64,000 bases of DNA from contig JAKZAN010000006.1 in NCBI GenBank assembly GCA_023053545.1, positions 4,345,001-4,409,000 on the forward strand. The letters run 5' to 3'. Numbering within the stretch: the stretch's first letter is position 1; every line of letters starts with the position of its first letter. The position numbers and the translations under genes are program-made. Origin of the DNA: Lepidurus packardi (taxonomy: Eukaryota; Arthropoda; Branchiopoda; Notostraca; Triopsidae). The notes beneath the pieces were generated by a model. That model saw only the letters and a list, made by a program, of their open reading frames with translations. It had not been told where the DNA came from and did not search any database. Positions 8,545 to 21,700 of this stretch are shown in pieces.

Positions 8545-9968
8545 ATGAAGTTACACTTTTTCCTTATAGCCTGTGTTTCTATATGGCTAACAAGTTGTTG
8601 TGCACCGAGTTCTTGCTCTCAAAATAAAACGGAAGAAGATCATAAATGGGACAAATTTAAGGTATTAAAACATACGAACACTAAAGCTAATATTTCTAAG
8701 AAATGCTACATACAATACGTTGTTAGGATCAAGGAGGAAGAAAATACAAGAATGAGGCCGAGGAAGCAAGACGCCGAGAGACTTGGAAAAAGAAAATGGT
8801 AGAAATTGACGAACACAACAAGCAGTATGCTAGTGGTAAGGTTCCTTACATGTTAGGAGAAAATAAGTTCTCGGATATGGTAAGATATGATGCTTTAAAA
8901 CTATAAGAATTGCGAGATTTAATCCCATGCTTTATGTAGACGTACACAGAGTTCGCGGAAACTTACTTGACACTCCAGGTACCGAAAATGCGCCCGAATG
9001 CGAGTAGGGTACTAAGCAGTACTTCCGCAAGGGCATTGCCAACCTCGGTAGGCATAGGCAAAACTCTATTACTAATGCTTAACGTACGTATCCTTGGAAG
9101 TTGGACTACAGTACGGATCCCTGTATGGCTGCTATCAAAGACCAGGGAAGTTGTGGTAGTTGTTATGCGTTTAGCGCCATAAGTCCTTTGGAATTCGATC
9201 TCTGTTTGAAGAAAGGCAATAAGTTAACAACGCTGAGGTATGTTCTTCTAAGCTTGCGACAATATTTCTGAACAGATAAGTCCCTTCTCTTCTATTTTTT
9301 CGTGTGTGTGTGTCTTAGTGAACAACAAGCAGTGGATTGCACAAGTTGTTACTTGACCGGTGGGAACAATGGATGCGGTGGCGGACTTTATACTACTGCA
9401 TGGGAAAAAATGCAAAGTAATCCGTTTGGAATCAACACGGACACGACGTATCCATACAGTCAGGTAGCGTAACAAAAATACAAAATTACGAAAGCTTGAA
9501 ATTAGTCATCGTAATACAGGATAAAGGCCTTTGCTTATTCCGGTTTAACATCTTTGCTCGAGCAGCTGGGGTAGCATCGTACAAATGGTTGACCAGTCGC
9601 AGTAATTCGGAAATTATGACAGCATTGTCCAACAAGCAGCTTGTTGCTGTGGGTTTGGCAGCAAACAGCAAATTTCAAGCCTACAAGTACGCTATTTTTT
9701 TTATAAATGAAATACACTATGCGTTCTTAATACGTATTTATCCTTTTTATACAGAACTGGCATCTTCACAGATACTGACTGTAACTCAATTGGAGCTAAC
9801 CATGCTATTGTACTTGTTGGGTACGGAACCGAATCGGGTATTGACTACTGGCTTGCAAGAAACTCGTGGGGAACCGGGTGGGGAATGTCAGGTTATCTGA
9901 AAATTAAGCGTGGGACCGATTTATGCCATATTGAGTCCTATCCCGCTGTAGTAACTGCTTCGAGTTAA
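8545..9968 (+). CDS. Cathepsin L-like cysteine protease (papain family C1A), complete, 7 exons
   Basis: Exons are 8545-8661, 8727-8879, 8940-9047, 9101-9237, 9319-9463, 9520-9686 and 9755-9968. All introns are GT-AG, 53-81 nt, and the joined frame of 346 residues is open. A signal peptide covers about residues 1-22. The I29 propeptide has an ERFNIN-like helix (EEARRRETW...IDEHN) and GENKFSDM. The mature peptidase has the oxyanion Gln141 and catalytic Cys147 in QGSCGSCYAF, then His292 in NHAIVLVGYG and Asn312 in RNSWG. The papain GCGGG loop and YPY are also present. The enzyme should be a secreted or lysosomal endopeptidase, and in crustaceans such enzymes often serve in gut digestion. Odd points: Tyr replaces the usual Trp after the active cysteine, and exon 4 begins LDYSTDPC where a DWR-type sequence is usual. 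All catalytic residues are kept, so activity is expected. Exon borders rest on protein alignment logic; the exon 3/4 junction is the least certain. Confidence 0.93.
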
Positions 9969-10626
9969 CGTGTAATTTAATTGTCGTGCCCAATTACTAC
10001 CGAATTTAGCCGGTTTTTCCTTTAAAAATATATTGGTTTACTCAGTCGACTTCTGCATTCTCTTGATTTATAAATAATTCAAAATTTCCTCTGAATTCTT
10101 TCTCATCTGTTATATCCTTTCATTATCGGTATCGCTAATGTGTTAAACATGTCTAATTTTCAAGCAACAGAAACCCCTAACTTGTTCGTTTAATAAGCTT
10201 CCTTTAAATCAGCTTTTGTGGTAAGAGAGCTGCCATCTAGTAGCTAAACTGTGAAAATGTATTGCGCAATGACAGTGGGGAAAGCTGATACTAACTTCAA
10301 CGTATGCTTTTGGTGTTGGTAGAGAGCGAGTTCTTGTACTTTTGTGTAACTTAGTGCAAGGATAATAGAAGGTATAGATATATTTAATCGTTTTCTTTAC
10401 TTAAAACAACAACTACAAATTCTGAGTAATTTAATATGTTAAACTTGGACTCAATTTTCTACTTCGAGTTATTAAAAAGTGTTTTTTCGAGGTGACTCCA
10501 AGTCGATTCCATTCAAAAGACGCGAACGTGCATTGATATTGAAACTCATTCAATACGGCTAAGACGTTTTTCTAAATTTTCGTTAATTATTTGTGTTCGT
10601 CTGCAGGTTCTGCGTAAGTAGCAGTT
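9969..10626. other. Cathepsin 3' flank and Srrm234 5' flank
   Basis: AT-rich sequence with no coding exon. No exact AATAAA follows the protease stop; AATATA-like and ATAAATAA-type sequences occur near 10028 and 10069. A good 3' splice site (TTGTGTTCGTCTGCAG, ending at 10606) lies 20 nt before the next ATG. It may mark a spliced 5' UTR for the splicing-factor gene. Confidence 0.4.
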
Positions 10627-13600
10627 ATGTATAATGGGATTGGGCTGAACACAGCCAGAGGTTCTGGCACCAATGGTTACGTCCAGCGGAATTTGGCCTT
10701 TATAGCTAACAAAAAGGAAAAAATCCAATACCGGACTGAGGAAGATCTTGCCAAACTTGACGCCCAGACCAATCGTCAGCCAAATAAGGAGATTCTAGCT
10801 CACGAAAAGAAGCGAAAACTTGAATTAAAAGTCCTAGAACTCCAAGATGTTTTAGAAGACCAAGGGTACGTCCAGTTACCCCCAAATCCTTTAAACTACA
10901 TCTCTTCTCGCTACCTAAGACTTACCTTTAACTGTAATTCAACTTTTATTGAATTAAGATTTTAAGACTTACCTTTAACTATAATTTCAACTATAATTTA
11001 ACTTATAATTCAACTATAATTCAAATTCAACAAACTCTAAAATTTAGGCAAACATATTTTTGACATTTTGTAAAGTCCCAGCTTTCGTTTTCTGTTCGCT
11101 AACATTACACGTTTCTATGCTTGAAAGACCGGGTTGGTATCCTTAAAGCTCTCTGAAGGTTTTCTTGTGCAAAAAAGTGCTGTCATAATACCTGTATGAC
11201 GTTTACTTGACAGCATCACTCACATCAGCCAACTTCAAGCTGGCCATGCGCCTTTGGAGACATTCAACAAAGGCTAGAATAATACCCAATCTTCCTCCAG
11301 GCGTTTCCTTGATTTTTAACTTACACGCTGTCCAGCTTTTCCCCAGGAGAAACCGGCATAAATACAGCTTAACACGTATCCTAAGTGTAATCTAGGGTAG
11401 TGCGTATTCTTTCCACGTTCGTATGGTGAATTAACTGAATTTTTATTAACGATTTTCCATTTCTTCTCCCCTAATTCCGTTATAGTGTTCTTTCTAATCC
11501 TTAATCACCGTCCCTACTATTGATTAATGTTACGTCTGAGTTATGTGAAAAGCGTAGGGTGACGCCGATCAATATTCGACCGCCTGAAGCGGAACGGAGC
11601 GGAATGAAGGCGACCACGGAAACTATTGATTTTCCTCCATGTCTCCATATTGCCTTTGCAAAGTTGAGCCAAGCTTTAGTAGTGTGCGGCAGCGAGTCTA
11701 TTACATACTTGGTGTTCGTTTATACCTTAAACGCCTTTACCTAGCTCGCCAACTAGTTTTTATTAACGTAGTGTATTTTATCGCAGTGTCAATTTGTATG
11801 CTCCAAGTGAACTCTTTACGGGCGGAACTAACACGTTTTGTTTCATTTGGACAGGCTGCCGGAGGAAGAAATCCAAGAAAAATTACTGGCATACCGTGCC
11901 ATGCTAATTGAAAAAGAAAAGACTACCCAGAGCAAACCTTACGAACGGGACGAGTTTGGAAGATTAATGTAAGTAGATTCATTAATTATTATTTATTTTC
12001 CCTCAAATAAAAAGGCGAAGAATTGAAAAAAAAAGCTTGTGACGACGGTAAACACGCGTGTTCCTCCATGCCTTTTATGCGCAAAAGAAGTGCGCCAACT
12101 AGTCTTTTGGGAGCAGGGAGCGTTTATTGATTTGGGCATCCTTTTCCTCTCAGCTTGATCTTCTGCATCTGTTAGTGAGGATGGACGCCATATTGGGTGT
12201 TCGTTACGTTAGATTGTCCTTAAACCTAAAAAAAGTGTTAAATCTAGTCATGTAACGGGTTAGTTTTTAATTAGTGATGACGTGATAAGTCCAAGTCTTC
12301 CAGTTGCAGTTTTTGCAACCAATCCACGTCTTCCATTTGTGCATTAATATTGTTGCCTTGTCCGAGTCTTCCATTTCCTGAAATGTATTCCGTGTCCGAG
12401 GTCTCAAAGAAAATTAGCTTTCCCAATAGTTTATTCTATCAGCGTTCGTTATCCGTCTTGAGGGCACACGCGAACACCAACCCTTACGTTGCTAACAGGC
12501 ATTTCGGTCCAAACGGACGAAAGTTCAGCTTCTCAATTCCTCAAGCTCCTCCTCGAGAGAGATCAGTACTAGAAAGCAATGATTTGATAGCAAGCGATCA
12601 CGTTCACGGCATTAAATGGCCTGCGTTTAACATTGTCACAGTACCGTGTACGTGCCATTGCGCCAACGGTAAACGCAAGAAGAAACGCAAACGTAAAAAA
12701 CCACGAAATTGGTCCGTAACTCATGTAGAGGAAGTTAGAGCACGATCGTATTGGGATTTGGACGACGAGTCTGTAGTAAAACGCTCCCTGCGCTCGGTTA
12801 TTAGGTATTTTTCGTGTCGAGTACAGCAGATTTCGTATTTTTTTTTTTACAAAAATCGATCTAATTTGTTGTTTGCGTTTGTATTTTTTAGTGTTAAGGA
12901 CTCGCACGCCCTGGCTGAAGCCCAACGCGAGAAAACAGTACAGTTGCGCGCTGCATTTGGCATTTCCGAAACGTATGTAGATGGTTCCAGTTTTGATGCC
13001 AGTCGGAAAGCAGCTAAAGATGTTAAAGATGCAGAGCCACCCAAATACGACATCGTGCACTCGCCGACTCCCAAGCCAGAAGAAGAAGTAAAGGACAAGA
13101 AGGAGAAGAAAGACAAGAAGAAGAAAAAGAAGGAGAAGCGGAAACACAAAGACAGGTATGATTGCATTTGTTTTTCATTTTATCCTGAATTTTAAGGCAA
13201 TTTTGACGTGTACTTTGACGTTTTTGAAGCAGTTCTTCCGAGGCCGAGTCTGAAGATGAAAAGTCCAAAAGCCATAAGAAGAGGAAAGGTGACTCGTCGG
13301 GGGAGGAGTCTGACAAAGACAAATCAAAGTCCAGGAAAAAGGGAAGCAGAAGAGATTCTTCCGACGAGGACATCACAAAGTAATATTTTTGTTACGTTTA
13401 AAGAGGAATTAGTATAAATGATGATTGAAAAGACTATACAAGGTAGAATTGGGAAGGTATTAACGATTGAATCTGGTTGTTAGGGAGGATAGAAGAACTA
13501 TAAAACGATCCCGCCATGATTCTCATAGTCCTTTACCCTCTTCGAGTGGAACCAGCAAACGTCACCAACAAGTAAGGGAATTGAGACCCAAGAGCATGTC

Positions 13601-16600
13601 ATTTTGGCAAATTTGTCTCTATAATGGTTCCTACTTCTGGAGTTTCTTTCGTTTGTTAAGTAATATGCCTTGCTTCCGGGTTAAAAGGTACGTTTTCTCT
13701 TTGTACCCATTTGTCTTCATGGTAAACTGGCACGAAAATCGACCAGCACGTTTTTTTTTCTAAGCGCATTTAATTTTATTCCCCCGTTTTTCTCTAAATG
13801 ACTCGTAACTTTTTACTATATTTTTTGCATTAATACCATTATTAACAGTTAAGTTTAAGTATCTCCGAGTGTTAAACTACTGAAACTGATTGACAAGATG
13901 CAGTAACGTCATATTCCAAAACCACTGCAAAAAATTTTTGTCCATATTGCAGTATATTTTCAATTCATATTCAATATATTTTCAATTTTTTTCATATTGC
14001 AAAAAAAGAACGCTGATGCATGCAGGCGGTTATCGAAATGTTTTGTCTAGGGTTAAGTATCGACATTGTTTCCGTTTCAATTTTCGATTCCTAATCAAGT
14101 GCAGAGAGAAATAGCGGTTTGGGTTTTTGCAGGCGATTATCGATATTGTTTCTTTATGGTTAAGTATCGATATTGTTTCCATTTCAAATTTTGATATCTA
14201 ATCGCCGGAGAGGAAAATAGCGGTTTTTGTGCTTTTTCATCGACAAAATTCGAGTTTTTACAAGTTTACAAGAAGCTTTTCGTGTCAGTTCACTGTACAC
14301 TTTGACAAAAGTTATTTTTTAGAACAAAAATTGACTCAGCTTGGTCGTCTTTCGTATAAAAGGAACGGAAGAAGATAGAAAGTACTTTGTCAGCTTTCGG
14401 TTTTGACGTTTGTCTCTTGCTACATAAAAGACCAGTCCATTTTTTTCTCTGTTCCATTAAACTTGTCTACTTTATATAACTGCCATGCCTTATCCAGGAG
14501 TGACCTCACCATCTCGTAAGTAATCTTAAACACACACACAAGCAAAACCACACACGTATGAACAAAATTGCCCTTCTTTCTCAGTGCTATTGGCTAGGAT
14601 ATATTTGGTTCATAAAAACTTTGACTGTTGTCTTGGTCCATTCCACGTTGAGTTCCCTAACAGTCTTGCTTCATTTTAGGAGAAACCTTCAGACGATCGC
14701 GGAGGCCGGGTTAGTCGCCATGAAAACCGGGAAGCTAACGGAGACAAACCCGGCAGAGATGGACGTCAACGCCACATCGAAAAGCCACGCGATCGAGAAG
14801 AACCGCCTCGAGAACGCTCCAAAGATAGAATCCGACCCGAAGGCAAAGAATCCCGCGTAGATTCGTCCAAGAAGCCCGAATCCCGCGATCGCCGTGATCA
14901 GGACCAGGATCGCGGGGATCGCCACCGTTCCAACCGAGACCGTCCTCAAGAAGACGCTCGAAGCAGTCGCCGAGACGGACCTGAGCGCAGCAACGGCCGA
15001 AGAGAAGAACCCAAGCCGATTGCACCGATCGAAAAGGCTGTCGTACCCGAAGAGGCAATTCGGGAAGAGCCTAAGGATCGTCCGGCCCCGGAGGTTAGGG
15101 GCAATGGTCGCGAAAAGAACGGCGGAAGTCGCCGTTACGATGATCGGGATCGAAATCGGGAACGGGACAGGAGCAGGGATCGCGATAGGCCACGACGAGA
15201 GAACGACAACCCACGAGATCAAGACCACGATCGACGTAACCATCCCAGGGATCGCGACAACACCCGCACGGAAGATCGCCGCGAGCGAAGAGACTCCCCC
15301 AAGCAGGACCGCCGAGAACGAGACAGGATTTCGGAGCACTCGCAGCGCCGAGATCGTTCTAATGATCGCAGCAAGGACGCCGAGGACGTCAGCCAGAAGA
15401 AGATCGTCGTAGAAGCGGTTGTGTCCCGCGACGACCGGAGAGAACGTAAAAAGTCCCCTGCGAGCCAGGTGGAGAGCAATGGGAGCCGGAAAACAGGGGA
15501 AAAGGAACAGCGAGAGCAACAGAAGCCCGAAAAGGGAAGCTCGGGACACGAGTCTCGGCGCAAAAGTTCGCCGATGTTGTCGCGTTCGCGGAGTCGGAGC
15601 TATTCACCCTTGCGGCGTAATACGGGTCGCTATCAGGAAATTCCGCCGCAAGCGCGCGTACTCGAGCAACCGAAAGCCGAGCTGGAAATCGCCACGCCCC
15701 TGAAAGTGTCGTTCCCCATACCTAGCAAGAAGTTTTCAAAAACGAAGAGCTCTTCGTCTTCTTCATCTTCCTCGTCCTCTTCCTCGTCCTCTTCGTCGTC
15801 CTCGTCCTCGGACTCGGATAGTTCTCACAAATCTGACAAGCGGAAATCGCGCAAAGCTCGATCTCGCGAATCTTCGGAAGATTCCAGCAGTTCTTCGCGC
15901 TCTTCGTCGTCGTCTTCAGACTCTTCGTCGAGCTCGTCAACGTCGCGTTCACGTAGTCGTTCGCTTTCGATCCCGCGTCGCTCGGGGTCGCCCTCTTTTC
16001 TAGACAAACGCAGAATCACCAGGTAAAGGAGTACCTACAAGTTTATCCGCTACGTCTTTTCTTCTTCCTTCATTATTACTATAATTTTTTTGTCCTAAAC
16101 CCTTTGAGTTCAGTTTTAAGAAAAAAACGACATCCCTACTCCATCAGACACTTAGAATTTTTGAGTTTTCGATTATTTTGATTTATTTTTTTTTAGTATT
16201 ACTTTCTTAGCTGTTCCTTTTGGCATGTATCGTATTTTCTTTCCAGTAGTTAATACACTTTTCAGTTCCGCCTCGCAGTTTTGTTGTACAGCAAGTTGTG
16301 TTTATCCTTGGCCCTTGTACAATGTTCTTGTTACAGCAAGCTCCCTTAGGATGCCCAAGCGATTCATAACGGTAAGGTCCAGCTCATTTGCCGTTTTTTC
16401 TCCAGCTTGGTTCCGCTTTTATTTGATTTTTTTTTTTTAAATCATCCGTACTTCTGTTGTCGGTACCTTAAACAGTTCTCGCATTGTTACAACGCCAATT
16501 TTCTTATAATTTTAATTTTTTAGATTTTTATTAACAATGAAAATTTGAGGGGAATTGTGGTCATTTTGGATTTGTTGTCATTGGGGACGTAGTACGGGGG

Positions 16601-16990
16601 AACTTAACAAACCAGGGCGTACTAACATTCAAATTGTATTTTACTAGTGCTCGTAAACGTCCCATTCCATACCATCGTCCCACGCCTACTCCACTAACTA
16701 GCAGCTCGGAATCTGATTACTGGGACCGGTCCAGTCGTTCTTCTTGTTCCAAGAGTCGCTCACGATCCCGTTCTTCGTGGAGCAGGACATCCAGAAGTTA
16801 TTCACGATCTCGTTCGCACTCCAGGGCCAGGTCTAGTCGGCCGCGTTCGCGTCATACTTCCCTGAGTAGTCGTAGTTCTGGACGAAGCAGTTCGCGTTCG
16901 TCTTCGAGGTCACGAGGCTCGCGAGCTTCGTCTCGCGACAGTGCACGGAGAAAGAAGAGTAGCACCCGCAGCCGAGAGAACAGTCGCTAG
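10627..16990 (+). CDS. Srrm234: Srrm2/3/4-type SR-related splicing factor with cwf21 and eMIC domains, complete
   Basis: Exons are 10627-10865, 11855-11968, 12892-13155, 13233-13379, 13484-13571, 14680-16022 and 16648-16990. Joined, they give 845 residues; an optional in-frame exon at 12499-12804 would make 947. The N-terminus MYNGIGL..RGSGTNGYVQRN is the SRRM2/Cwc21 signature. A cwf21 domain follows at about residues 55-105, which in the family contacts Prp8/Snu114 in the spliceosome. LRAAFGI and YVDGSSFD (about 136-153) also match SRRM2. Then come a Lys/Glu-rich linker, a long RD/RE/RS region in exon 6, a polyserine run near 641-665 and RS repeats. Residues about 722-747 (PSFLDKRRIT-S-ARKRPIPYHRP) match the eMIC domain of SRRM3/4, which enhances neural microexon inclusion. 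The combination of cwf21 and eMIC in one gene is the ancestral invertebrate arrangement. It is a nuclear protein. Orthology is secure; isoform usage is inferred. Confidence 0.93.
10866..11854 (+). other. First intron of Srrm234 with a short tandem repeat
   Basis: A 989-nt GT-AG intron. It contains a roughly 47-bp near-duplication beginning AAGACTTACCTTTAACT at 10917 and 10964, followed by repeats of ACTATAATTC to about 11030. No coding exon was recognised. Confidence 0.5.
12499..12804 (+). other. Srrm234: Candidate in-frame cassette exon of Srrm234 (102 codons)
   Basis: The intron between 11968 and 12892 contains a 306-nt stretch, open in the phase needed at both ends. It is preceded by a strong acceptor (TTGCTAACAG, ending at 12498) and followed by a donor, AG|GTATTT, at 12805. 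Its length is a multiple of three, so inclusion or skipping leaves the downstream frame intact. The encoded segment begins HFGPNGRKFS, has a CTCHC cluster, a very basic KRKKKRKRKKPRNW stretch and an acidic WDLDDE motif. No known domain was recognised. It is either an alternative exon or an exonised sequence. Transcript evidence is needed to decide. Confidence 0.45.
14024..14233 (+). repeat. Diverged tandem duplication (about 107 bp) with TATCGATA sites
   Basis: Two adjacent copies begin GCAGGCGGTTATCGA (about 14024) and GCAGGCGATTATCGATATTG (about 14130) and both end ATAGCGGTTT. The second copy contains two TATCGATA words (14138-14145 and 14165-14172), identical to the DRE promoter motif of insects; in the first copy both are mutated. 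It lies in an intron 120-330 nt upstream of a TATA box. Confidence 0.6.
14355..14515 (+). promoter_or_regulatory. Possible internal promoter and alternative first exon of Srrm234
   Basis: TATAAAAG at 14355 is followed 37 nt later by a TCAG initiator-like site (14390-14393), then an ATG at 14485 and a donor consensus C|GTAAGT at 14516. Splicing to the 14680 acceptor would shift the short MPYPGVTSPS frame into a stop. If this exon is used, it would therefore act as a 5' leader for a shorter RS/eMIC protein starting within exon 6. Two DRE-like sites lie just upstream. This is suggestive only. Confidence 0.25.
16023..16647 (+). other. Srrm234: Terminal intron splitting the eMIC domain
   Basis: This 625-nt GT-AG intron separates KRRIT from ARKRPIPYHRP. 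The donor reads AG|GTAAAG and overlaps an in-frame stop: unspliced RNA encodes RITR then TAA at 16024-16026. Retention or a terminal exon inside the intron would thus remove the eMIC C-terminus. A further acceptor-like site (TTTTTTTTAG, ending at 16196) opens an in-frame stretch to 16440. No AATAAA or ATTAAA was found in the intron. Confidence 0.6.
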
Positions 16991-17532
16991 TCATTATTTT
17001 TGTGTTTTTAGGGATCTCTGTGTTTTGTTAGTTGTGCGATATTACTTAACGAATTAAGCATTAAGGTATGACAGGCTCAGTTGAGCCAAGTGAATCTTGC
17101 AATTCCAATGTTGCACTTGTGATGAGCATGGGAATGAGCAGGAGAATCAGGGGCGTAACTTTGAGATTTATGCCCTTATCTGCGGCTACAAGTACTTAAG
17201 AATACTCTTGATTAAAAAATTTAGATAATGTCTCTCATCAAAGGCTAAACACGGCCACGGTGAGCTGTTATAATACTCCCTGTTGGATTTTTGGATCTCA
17301 TGTGAAATTGCATTAACCCATGTATGTGAACCATCTACTTAAGCTTATTTTTTCTTGAAACAATATGAGGGTGATTACTCTCCCATATTGAGAGTAAGAT
17401 CTTCTAGTCATTTGCTGCTTCTCGTAACGTTTTTTTTGTTCGATTTTTGTTCCAGTCTGAGCTAAAGTCGCATTCCCAACCTTGCTAGTCATTCCAATTC
17501 TTCCCTAAGAAATCTCGTATTGTTTCCGTGTG

Positions 17533-17538
17533 AATAAA
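17533..17538 (+). terminator. Polyadenylation signal of Srrm234
   Basis: AATAAA about 540 nt after the stop, followed by a GT/T-rich stretch (TGCGTATTTCTTGTCT). An earlier ATTAAA at 17211-17216 is a possible proximal site. The next gene's 5' exon begins only about 150 nt downstream. Confidence 0.55.
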
Positions 17539-18289: not shown

Positions 18290-18727
18290 ATGGCTGATGG
18301 TGGAGATGGATTTGACCTGTGCGAATGTATTTGGAACCATGAGATGGCTATGAGGAGACTTATTAACTTGGTAATTAAAAAAAATTATCTTTGGAACTAA
18401 TTTTATTTATTAATTTTTTTGTGCGAACAGTTGCGCTCCTCGCAGGCGTATTGTAACGACAACGAATGCCTTACAGATCTCCCTGGGCCAACCGGTGCAC
18501 CGAATGCAGATAACGGAATGTTTTTTATGATGATCTGTTGGGCAGCTTTGGCGGTTGCGTTGTACTTGATGCGACCCCCTTCTCTAAGAAACAGAAGTGA
18601 TGGTAAACCCAGTCAGGTACTATATTCCACTCGCATTAATTGGCTTTACCTGCTCTAATTGCCATTGCTTTGTCCATTGTAGGGTCCGAATGGCAGAGGG
18701 CCTCCAGCTCCACCTGCTCTTAATTAG
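18290..18727 (+). CDS. SMIM14: SMIM14, small integral membrane protein 14
   Basis: Coding exons are 18290-18370, 18431-18616 and 18683-18727, giving 103 residues. The N-terminus has the family pattern GFDLCECIWNHEMAMRRLIN, then LRSSQAYCNDNECL with conserved cysteines and LPGPTG. One membrane segment spans about residues 57-74 (MFFMMICWAALAVALYLM), followed by RPPSLR and a Pro-rich tail ending PPAPPALN. The human protein (about 99 residues) has the same order and length. It is an ER membrane protein whose exact role is poorly known. The start codon lies directly at the splice acceptor. All introns are short GT-AG. The 3' UTR region contains overlapping GTACTGTAC words at 18777-18790. Confidence 0.95.
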
Positions 18728-21700
18728 CCCTAGACGCCTTCCTCGCAAGTGATTTGGACCAATGACAACGTCGAATGTACTGTACTGTACGGTGGTGATG
18801 ATTGAGGCACGTTTTCTTGTAAATTTTCAAAGGTTATTGTAACGAAAACTTCTTTGTGTGGTTGTTATGGGCTTGCACAGGCTAAGGATATAAATATCGT
18901 ATGGCTTACTTTTAATGTAGCTGCAGGATTTTTATGTATCATATATAAGTAGCCTTGGAATATAACCCAGATTTAATACCTGGAACTGGATTCCTTATAC
19001 AATATAAACTTCTTGTATTCTTGAGTTGTTTTATTTCTCCATTTGCTTTATTCGCAGTTTTTTAACCAAAGAACTTTGGTATCATAAAACCTTCGTTATG
19101 TCTTCGAGCATTATAGGTATATGAGTATTACAGCTTGGAGTGTGTTCGAGTCGAGTGGAAGTGAAGTGAAGGTGCACATTCCAATTGCGCTACCGCAACA
19201 AAAAAAATCCGAACACTTAAGCTAATGGCTTCTTTAGGTTCAATGGTGGAACTGATCCCTAATGGTCACGTTCGTTCACGGTTTATAAGCTGCTAAGTGA
19301 ATGGAGTAATTGCTTTAAAATTGCGTACGTCATTCGCCTTTGTAAATGGCAAGGACCTTTGCTTAAAACTTGCCTGATTGCCTTTATGAGATGAAGGTGA
19401 GCCCAATTAAAACAGTGAAAAGGTTTCTTTTTCTGTGTATGGAAAATAATCTATAAAGATCAATGCGTAGCAACATGGGCAAGTCATTACTTGAATGTCC
19501 TGTGACGTCACCCGCTTGTCTAGCATTGGCAGTCTTTAGACAAGTATACTCCCTCAACAATGAAATCCCTTCGCTGTATGTTGACACTTGAGTTTCGTAA
19601 CGTCGAAGTACCTTGCAAAAGGCATTATTTCGGTTCATTCACATGGGGGAATTCAAGCCTATCAATAGGGAATTTGGCAATCCAGTGATACCTTAATTAA
19701 TATCGCAAGAAATATCTTGTTGTCGACTCCCGAATGTGGCTTTTTCTAATGAAAACGTTTCGGAAGACCTTTTCATGGTCAGCCTAATTACCTAGCTATA
19801 TTTTCTTCTTGCAATGATGTATATAGGTACAAACAAAAGAGGTTCAAACAGGAAGGGATCTTTTTGCTATTGCAAAATAGTTTCGTAATAAGTTATAGTA
19901 TATCTGAGACAGAATAACAACCTGGGGTGATGGCTGCTGGCCAAACCCAGCCAAACAGACGTACCGGACACTAAGTATTACATATTGGATGGTTGCGAAA
20001 GCGTCTGCAGTGCTTGTGTAGCGTATTTGTCTTGTATAAAAGGTATAATTTTTGTTTTCTCATGTGCGTTTTTTGTCTTTTTGTATTCCTTGACAGGTTA
20101 ACGCGAGGTAGCATGAATGACAACTTACTTAATTGGTGAAACCATGGCTGAATTGGCGTTTTTTGTTCGGATTCGTCGCGCATGGCGCTAAAGGCTAAAC
20201 GATAAGAGGTCTTGGATTGGCATAAACGTTTCCGGTGCTAAGGACCAGCTTATCTACTTTGCTGGTTATTTAAGGCCGCACGTTTGCTGCAACGCTGGAA
20301 CGGATGGCAGGTATTTTATCACTTTTGTTCTCGTAAAAAGCTAAGCTATGGAAAGGATGTTCAACTTCTCACTCCTTAACAGATGGTATACCTCCTGATT
20401 TACGAGTCTTTTAGCTGAAAGCTAGCTAAATTGTAAAGGCAACGACCAAAATCCAGGGATACACGAAGCCTACCATGCGTTACTAAGTGTTAAAGTTGGT
20501 CAGGTAAACTATGGTACGAGCCACTTTTTTGAACCCACAACGCATGTGGGACCTATCAATTAATTGATCCCTTGAGGTATTGAAAAAGAGAGGTTTCCAA
20601 CATATTTAGGAAAGAAAGGAAAATAAAAACGAGTGGCTTTTTTGGTGGTTTGAGGTATCTTTTGTGTGTATTTTTTGGGCTTGTTAGGTTGCCATGAAAC
20701 TGAATGAAACGTTTGAAAAATTACAACTGGTCAACGTTTCTTGAACCGTTATAGTGAGCCTTGTATTTTCTTAAACTTTAATAGGGAGGTCAATAGAGAC
20801 CGACATATATATATATTGTGTAAAAGCTCTAAAATTGAAGGCTCTATTTCCACTGCTGTCTCTTGATCCCGACAAATCCTGTTTGGCCGCTCTCTGCACT
20901 ATATACCTTCTAATTGCTGTGAAAGAACAATACTTCAAGCCCGTTGTCATGGTAGTGGCTTTGATCGTGGTTGATATCAAAGCGATGAAATCAGCTTCTA
21001 TCTTGATCGAAAAAGCCAACGCCAAATCCGCTTTTTACGGACCAACGCTCGAGTGTGTGAAACCCAGCACTCTTACGTTTGGCTGAACACCTTACATCAA
21101 GTTCTGGCTCTACCTTTCACGGGTAACCTGAAAATTTAACGGTTAAAAACTAATCTAAACAAAAGCGCTCTCGAGAGAAAAAACTCTGTGGTTTCTGAAC
21201 TTCTTGTTTGATCTTTTATTATACATCCAGAAAAAGAGAAAACTTTCTATGCCAAAACTTGTTATTTTTCACCATGTGACCCACTGTTAGAAAATACTGG
21301 AAAACATCGTTTGACTTAAAGGAGTGAACCACAGTATCTTGGTTTCTGAACCTATATACGTAGGTATATTTTGTGGTTTCCAAAGTTTAAAACGTTTCCA
21401 AAATTCTTTTTTCATTTTATACTTTATTATATACTTTAAGTATACAAATATATACTATATTACATATATACACTGTGTATGTACTGTGGAATGAATCATT
21501 TAAAGTTCGCAAGAATTAGATCATAATCTCGCGCTGCACTTGGACGCCATCTATAATGCCTTTTTTGGCGCAAAAAAAGTGGCGTGGGTGCGTTGTTTAG
21601 TCGTTGTGTTGTCTCACGTTTTCCTGTGACGTTTTCTTCAAACAAGGGAAGTTAAATTGTGCAATTTAGGCGAAAAAGAAACCTAGGACAGGTAAACATT

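Follow-up and report, generated by a model that had tools for sequence, protein, structure and literature searches.

A predicted Srrm234 gene of Lepidurus packardi in which the last intron divides the eMIC domain

INTRODUCTION

In non-vertebrate bilaterians, the eMIC domain is confined to neurons by posttranscriptional processing of Srrm234 transcripts, as described in the available passages of PMC8797185. In the fly, the proximal exon that lacks eMIC is either terminal, with a poly(A) site of its own, or, in transcripts that use the distal site, a poison exon; the proteins Elav and Fne promote skipping of this exon together with use of the distal site (PMC8797185). The A and G isoforms of fly Srrm234 end in four residues of their own after the shared part (PMC8797185). 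The main text of that paper names neither crustaceans nor arthropods. Among the literature matches listed there was no report of a Srrm234 gene in a crustacean, and Srrm234 stood beside crustacean or Daphnia only in the reference list of PMC8042237.

Here, we describe a locus in a 64,000-nucleotide stretch of the L. packardi genome (the window, within which positions are given unless a contig is named). A sequence-only reading of this DNA had held that invertebrate Srrm2/3/4 genes make eMIC isoforms through alternative processing, which is the neuron-restricting mode published in PMC8797185, and had proposed the last intron of this gene as the switch.

RESULTS

Gene model, domains, and copy number

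The gene model consists of seven exons on the forward strand (10627-16990) and has an open frame of 845 residues. Its features are as follows.

10627..10865, forward strand: exon 1, with the start codon, the SRRM2-type N terminus, and the beginning of cwf21 (gene model, Pfam, human SRRM2 alignment)
11855..11968, forward strand: exon 2, with the remainder of cwf21 (gene model, Pfam)
12892..13155, forward strand: exon 3 (gene model), its 5' part within the human SRRM2 N-terminal alignment
13233..13379, forward strand: exon 4 (gene model)
13484..13571, forward strand: exon 5 (gene model)
14680..16022, forward strand: exon 6, with an Arg/Ser-rich region and the first part of eMIC (SRRM_C model positions 2-55)
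16023..16647, forward strand: terminal intron (intron 6), 625 bases, phase 2, with a stop one codon in
16648..16990, forward strand: exon 7, with the last part of eMIC (SARKRPIPY...) and an RS tail; stop at 16988-16990
17533..17538, forward strand: AATAAA, likely used as the distal polyadenylation signal (hexamer scan)

Introns 1 to 6 are 989, 923, 77, 104, 1,108, and 625 bases long, and their phases are 2, 2, 2, 2, 0, and 2, respectively. Pfam domain analysis of the predicted protein revealed cwf21 (PF08312) at residues 57-100, with 55.5 bits against a cutoff of 23.2, and SRRM_C ("Serine/arginine repetitive matrix protein C-terminus") at residues 679-743, with 58 bits against a cutoff of 27 (E value, 1.5e-15); no family beyond these two was found with the whole protein up to an E value of 1. 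We take SRRM_C to be the eMIC domain. Residues 1-180 align with human SRRM2 (phmmer; E value, 1.4e-44; 155.2 bits). The sequence-only reading had claimed that the last two exons encode eMIC and that the same gene carries an SRRM2-type N terminus and cwf21. These matches bear out both claims, the eMIC match being above its cutoff in the profile search. No match was obtained with the N terminus in NCBIfam or, up to an E value of 1, with the eMIC stretch among the sequences of solved structures. The Arg/Ser-rich C-terminal part is likely disordered.

Three queries (the eMIC exon, the N terminus, and the DNA of 15900-17000) each gave a single match in the 108.6-Mb genome, at the locus itself, among the best candidates scored. 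Since each end of the gene has one match, we assign the gene, by sequence comparison, as a Srrm234 orthologue (SRRM2/SRRM3/SRRM4) with an eMIC domain. By the same comparison, it is the only Srrm234 or SRRM2-type gene detected in the genome, rather than one of separate SRRM2 and SRRM3/4 genes. A single SRRM2-type gene is the non-vertebrate pattern.

A six-frame search of the genome with PF15230 (SRRM_C) gave no matches, as did the controls (0 of 14). We attribute this blank to the intron that splits the domain; the protein query does find the locus. A second cwf21 domain lies on contig C2 (C2:2528288-2528422) and was absent from the matches of the N-terminal query. The frame adjoining it matched no Pfam family, and we take its surroundings to be a U2SURP/SR140-like gene.

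Four other genes were noted in the window. On the reverse strand, a bHLH gene (982-2016; PF00010, 66.1 bits) is presumably neurogenin/tap-like. On the forward strand are a papain-family cysteine protease gene of several exons (about 8545-9970; Peptidase_C1 match in one piece), a small DUF2615 protein (about 18290-18730; PF11027, 130.2 bits) that we assume to be SMIM14-like, and the start of a T-box gene (from about 56278; 31 bits against a cutoff of 26), with a weak Optomotor-blind N-terminal match (E value, 0.056).

The last intron divides the eMIC domain

Exon 6 ends in RRIT and two further bases; the third base of the Ser codon opens exon 7 and is followed by ARKRPIPYHRP. The spliced frame, ...GSPSFLDKRRIT-S-ARKRPIPYHRP..., continues without interruption to the stop at 16988-16990. 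The division of eMIC at RRIT-S-ARKRPIPY, with boundaries at 16022 and 16648, is as the sequence-only reading had placed it.

The donor of intron 6 is AG/G TAA (the slash marks the end of the exon), and reading through it meets a stop after one codon. The earlier remark that this donor overlaps a stop is correct for the letters but does not set the intron apart: a stop one codon in also is present in introns 2 and 4, and all three are phase 2 introns with a GTAA donor. Reading into introns 1, 3, and 5 meets a stop after 33, 13, and 63 residues, respectively. As a stop at the donor is common to three of the six introns, it does not point to a designed switch.

Ending at RITR means the loss of residues 732-845 (114 residues). 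In the truncated form, the last 92 residues retain an SRRM_C match of 26.9 bits (cutoff, 27) over model positions 2-55 of 67, and exon 7 alone matched no Pfam family up to an E value of 10. Intron retention had been said to remove eMIC. The domain is indeed cut short, but 54 of its 67 Pfam positions are left, with the score about halved, which is a shortening and not a removal of the whole. By analogy with the described systems, it is plausible that eMIC function would be lost on truncation.

Splice sites were scored with a generic animal matrix. On this scale, the acceptor of exon 7 is the weakest of the six (-1.22). Matrices built from 264 kb of the L. packardi genome were dropped, as 18 of 145 candidate introns passed the lowest of three thresholds and G stood at acceptor position -3 in 22%, unlike real sites.

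The weak acceptor is one of the points in favor of plain retention, in which the retained RNA would be exported and translated to RRITR and a stop, and neurons would splice the intron out. The stop one codon into the intron fits this reading, as does a length of 625 bases, which is shorter than introns 1, 2, and 5 (989, 923, and 1,108 bases). We consider it distinctly improbable. The stop carries little weight, being found also in introns 2 and 4, and introns 3 and 4 (77 and 104 bases) are shorter still and would be likelier to be retained by length alone. Moreover, the switch published for the fly, in the passages available, is a choice of exons, and the case of intron retention reported there concerns another intron, which is protein coding and retained in neurons (PMC8797185).

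Candidate proximal exon in the terminal intron

The counterpart sought by analogy with the fly is an exon within the terminal intron. The best candidate is as follows.

16279..16371, forward strand: candidate proximal (poison) exon, predicted, with a score at chance level; other possible starts include 16247, 16292, and 16337

The donor after 16371 (ACG/GTAAGG) scores 6.10, compared with -0.83 to 4.70 for the six annotated donors, and it is the only donor-like site above zero within the terminal intron. Upstream of 16371 are 11 acceptor-like sites that score above -1, the best being 16279 (3.71), 16247 (3.19), and 16197 (3.16); a further acceptor-like site is at 16406. All 11 acceptors, when joined to 16371, give an early end to the protein, 1 to 61 residues beyond RRIT, and the 35-base version from 16337 has the four-residue tail SKLP. 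Relative to the next junction, the stop is 2 to 22 bases upstream in three versions, just downstream in three, and 118 to 190 bases upstream in five. Transcripts are expected to decay when a stop lies far enough upstream of the next junction, and by this rule only the last five versions would be expected to do so. Among other windows, some including real exons of other genes, 57 of 837 equalled the best cassette score, as did 60 of 400 shuffles. The candidate exon therefore is a prediction from analogy and not a statistical finding. UGC or UCUC motifs, which are described for eMIC-dependent exons (PMC8797185), were not found in the last 150 bases of the terminal intron. A search for relatives in which conservation of this intron could be followed gave none in either viral_contigs (370 pattern stretches) or genome_contigs (598 stretches).

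We favor a switch made by a proximal exon that has no poly(A) site of its own, a reading that we hold to be about evenly balanced, and we name the exon ending at 16371 as that exon more tentatively. The proximal exon instead might be terminal outside neurons and carry its own intronic polyadenylation site, like isoform A of the fly, for which there is a precedent in pA1 (PMC8797185). The acceptor-like sites at 16247, 16279, and 16406 and variant hexamers in the intron (AAGAAA at 16118, AATACA at 16252, TTTAAA at 16436, and AATGAA at 16536) would allow this. None of the 625 bases, however, begins an AATAAA or ATTAAA, and AATAAA is found after exon 7, at 17533 (3' of exon 7 there also is an ATTAAA, at 17211); the argument is a weak one, as 1,811 of 4,004 intron-sized windows also lack both hexamers. 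On balance, we regard intronic polyadenylation as unlikely. The suggestion in the sequence-only reading of an alternatively terminated RNA is weakly disfavored by the same absence of AATAAA and ATTAAA.

U-rich sites and ELAV-like sequences

The terminal intron contains 13 overlapping UUUNUUU sites, the highest density among the six introns. At least 13 such sites were present in 84 of 4,004 windows, which places the intron in roughly the top 2%. T-matched windows reached this number in 10 of 48 cases and shuffled sequences in 97 of 500, so the count follows from the T richness of the intron; of the three enrichment tests, only the one without T matching stands out.

ELAV/Hu-like sequence is present in the genome. 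On contig C4 (C4:1236772-1241944), five collinear pieces cover positions 1-348 of the 351 of the ELAV family model. None of the 45 matches in this search reached the cutoff, the best piece having 163.8 of the 279.1 bits needed, and three of the five C4 pieces carry an internal stop as reported. The search was not specific, in that 2 of 14 bacterial-type controls matched too. On contig C16 (C16:262226-262537), an ELAV-like third RRM scored highest with ELAV among nine NCBIfam families (143.5 bits, compared with 66.3 bits for the second). In the region L006 76-1839, the exon that encodes this RRM is directly 3' of retroelement-like frames, which we take to be those of a retroelement reverse transcriptase.

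The last intron also could be spliced constitutively, with any neural restriction coming from promoters or other exons. Its sequence is canonical (GTAAAG...TAG), a CTAAC site of the branch type is located 26 bases ahead of exon 7, and control of the vertebrate genes is transcriptional (PMC8797185). The non-vertebrate mode, on the other hand, is published as posttranscriptional (PMC8797185 and PMC10551640, in the passages available). In addition, this is the only SRRM2-type gene detected and so probably must work in all cells. Constitutive splicing is improbable to our minds.

Open frame in intron 2 and microexon candidates in intron 5

A run of 204 codons free of stops (12281-12891) lies in intron 2, in the frame of exon 3. 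Given that introns 1, 5, and 6 have stops at a rate of 139/2,716, a run of this length has a probability of about 2e-5, uncorrected for the several introns; the remaining five internal or last exons are preceded by 0 to 36 open codons. Within the run is a 306-base candidate cassette (12499-12804; 102 residues) in frame with exons 2 and 3, and an alternative first exon from an ATG at 12383, bypassing cwf21, also is possible. In this frame, the codon score ranges from -0.10 to +0.06 upstream of 12805 and falls to -0.47 downstream, compared with a mean of -0.37 for intron 1 and -0.02 to 0.23 for the annotated exons; similar scores were obtained for 89 open frames of 130-200 residues, and the score does not settle whether the intron 2 frame is coding. 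The frame had no match in Pfam and is found at one place in the genome.

The locus thus might be switched at both ends, with a poison-exon switch of the holometabolous type without its own poly(A) site and, in intron 2, an alternative exon that adds 102 residues or replaces the cwf21 end. This seems to us rather improbable. If it is true, SRRM2-like and SRRM4-like proteins would be made from one gene.

Two candidate microexons were noted on the forward strand of intron 5: one of 27 bases (13661-13687; total splice-site score, 4.85) and one of 18 bases (14498-14515; 4.71). The latter reads GAG TGA, an in-frame stop.

DISCUSSION

The division of eMIC by the last intron probably turns eMIC function on or off, much as in flies. 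We infer the regulation, the tissues concerned, and the use of the candidate exon as follows. Joining of exon 6 to exon 7 would give the full eMIC protein, which, as in other bilaterians, would interact with early splice-site factors and promote neural microexons, and any other processing of the last intron would give an SRRM2-like protein cut at RRIT. Outside neurons, a proximal exon in the intron, the best candidate being the one that ends at 16371, would be spliced in and lead to premature termination. In neurons, ELAV-family proteins on the U-rich intron would promote skipping of the proximal exon, and the weak distal acceptor at 16648 then would be used.

The idea of a switch is sensible and agrees with the published biology, and retention is its less likely form. 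The proposal that this intron is the switch keeps its general sense, as it fits the published non-vertebrate mode, but retention is not supported over the other routes: the fly uses a proximal exon, for which there is a candidate here, at chance level. An intact Srrm234 gene with a split eMIC domain and a single genome match is now placed in another invertebrate. Its exact junctions are named, and they bear on the question of whether a 3' switch like that of the fly exists outside holometabolous insects.

Drosophila Srrm234 (CG7971) is similar in that there is one Srrm234 gene, of which only transcripts that reach the distal last exon encode eMIC; in that alternative 3' processing yields a protein without eMIC and with a very short tail of its own; and in that UUUNUUU motifs are found in the 3' end (PMC8797185, in the passages available). 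It differs in that the proximal exon and pA1 are documented by RNA in the fly, whereas here the exon is predicted and the intron contains neither AATAAA nor ATTAAA. Human SRRM2 (SRm300) aligns with the N-terminal 180 residues (E value, 1.4e-44) and, unlike the gene described here, is without eMIC (PMC10551640, in the passages available). Vertebrate SRRM3 and SRRM4 do carry eMIC, in agreement with the SRRM_C match obtained here, but they are separate genes whose neural expression is under transcriptional control (PMC8797185, likewise), whereas in L. packardi cwf21 and the SRRM2-type N terminus share a gene with eMIC.
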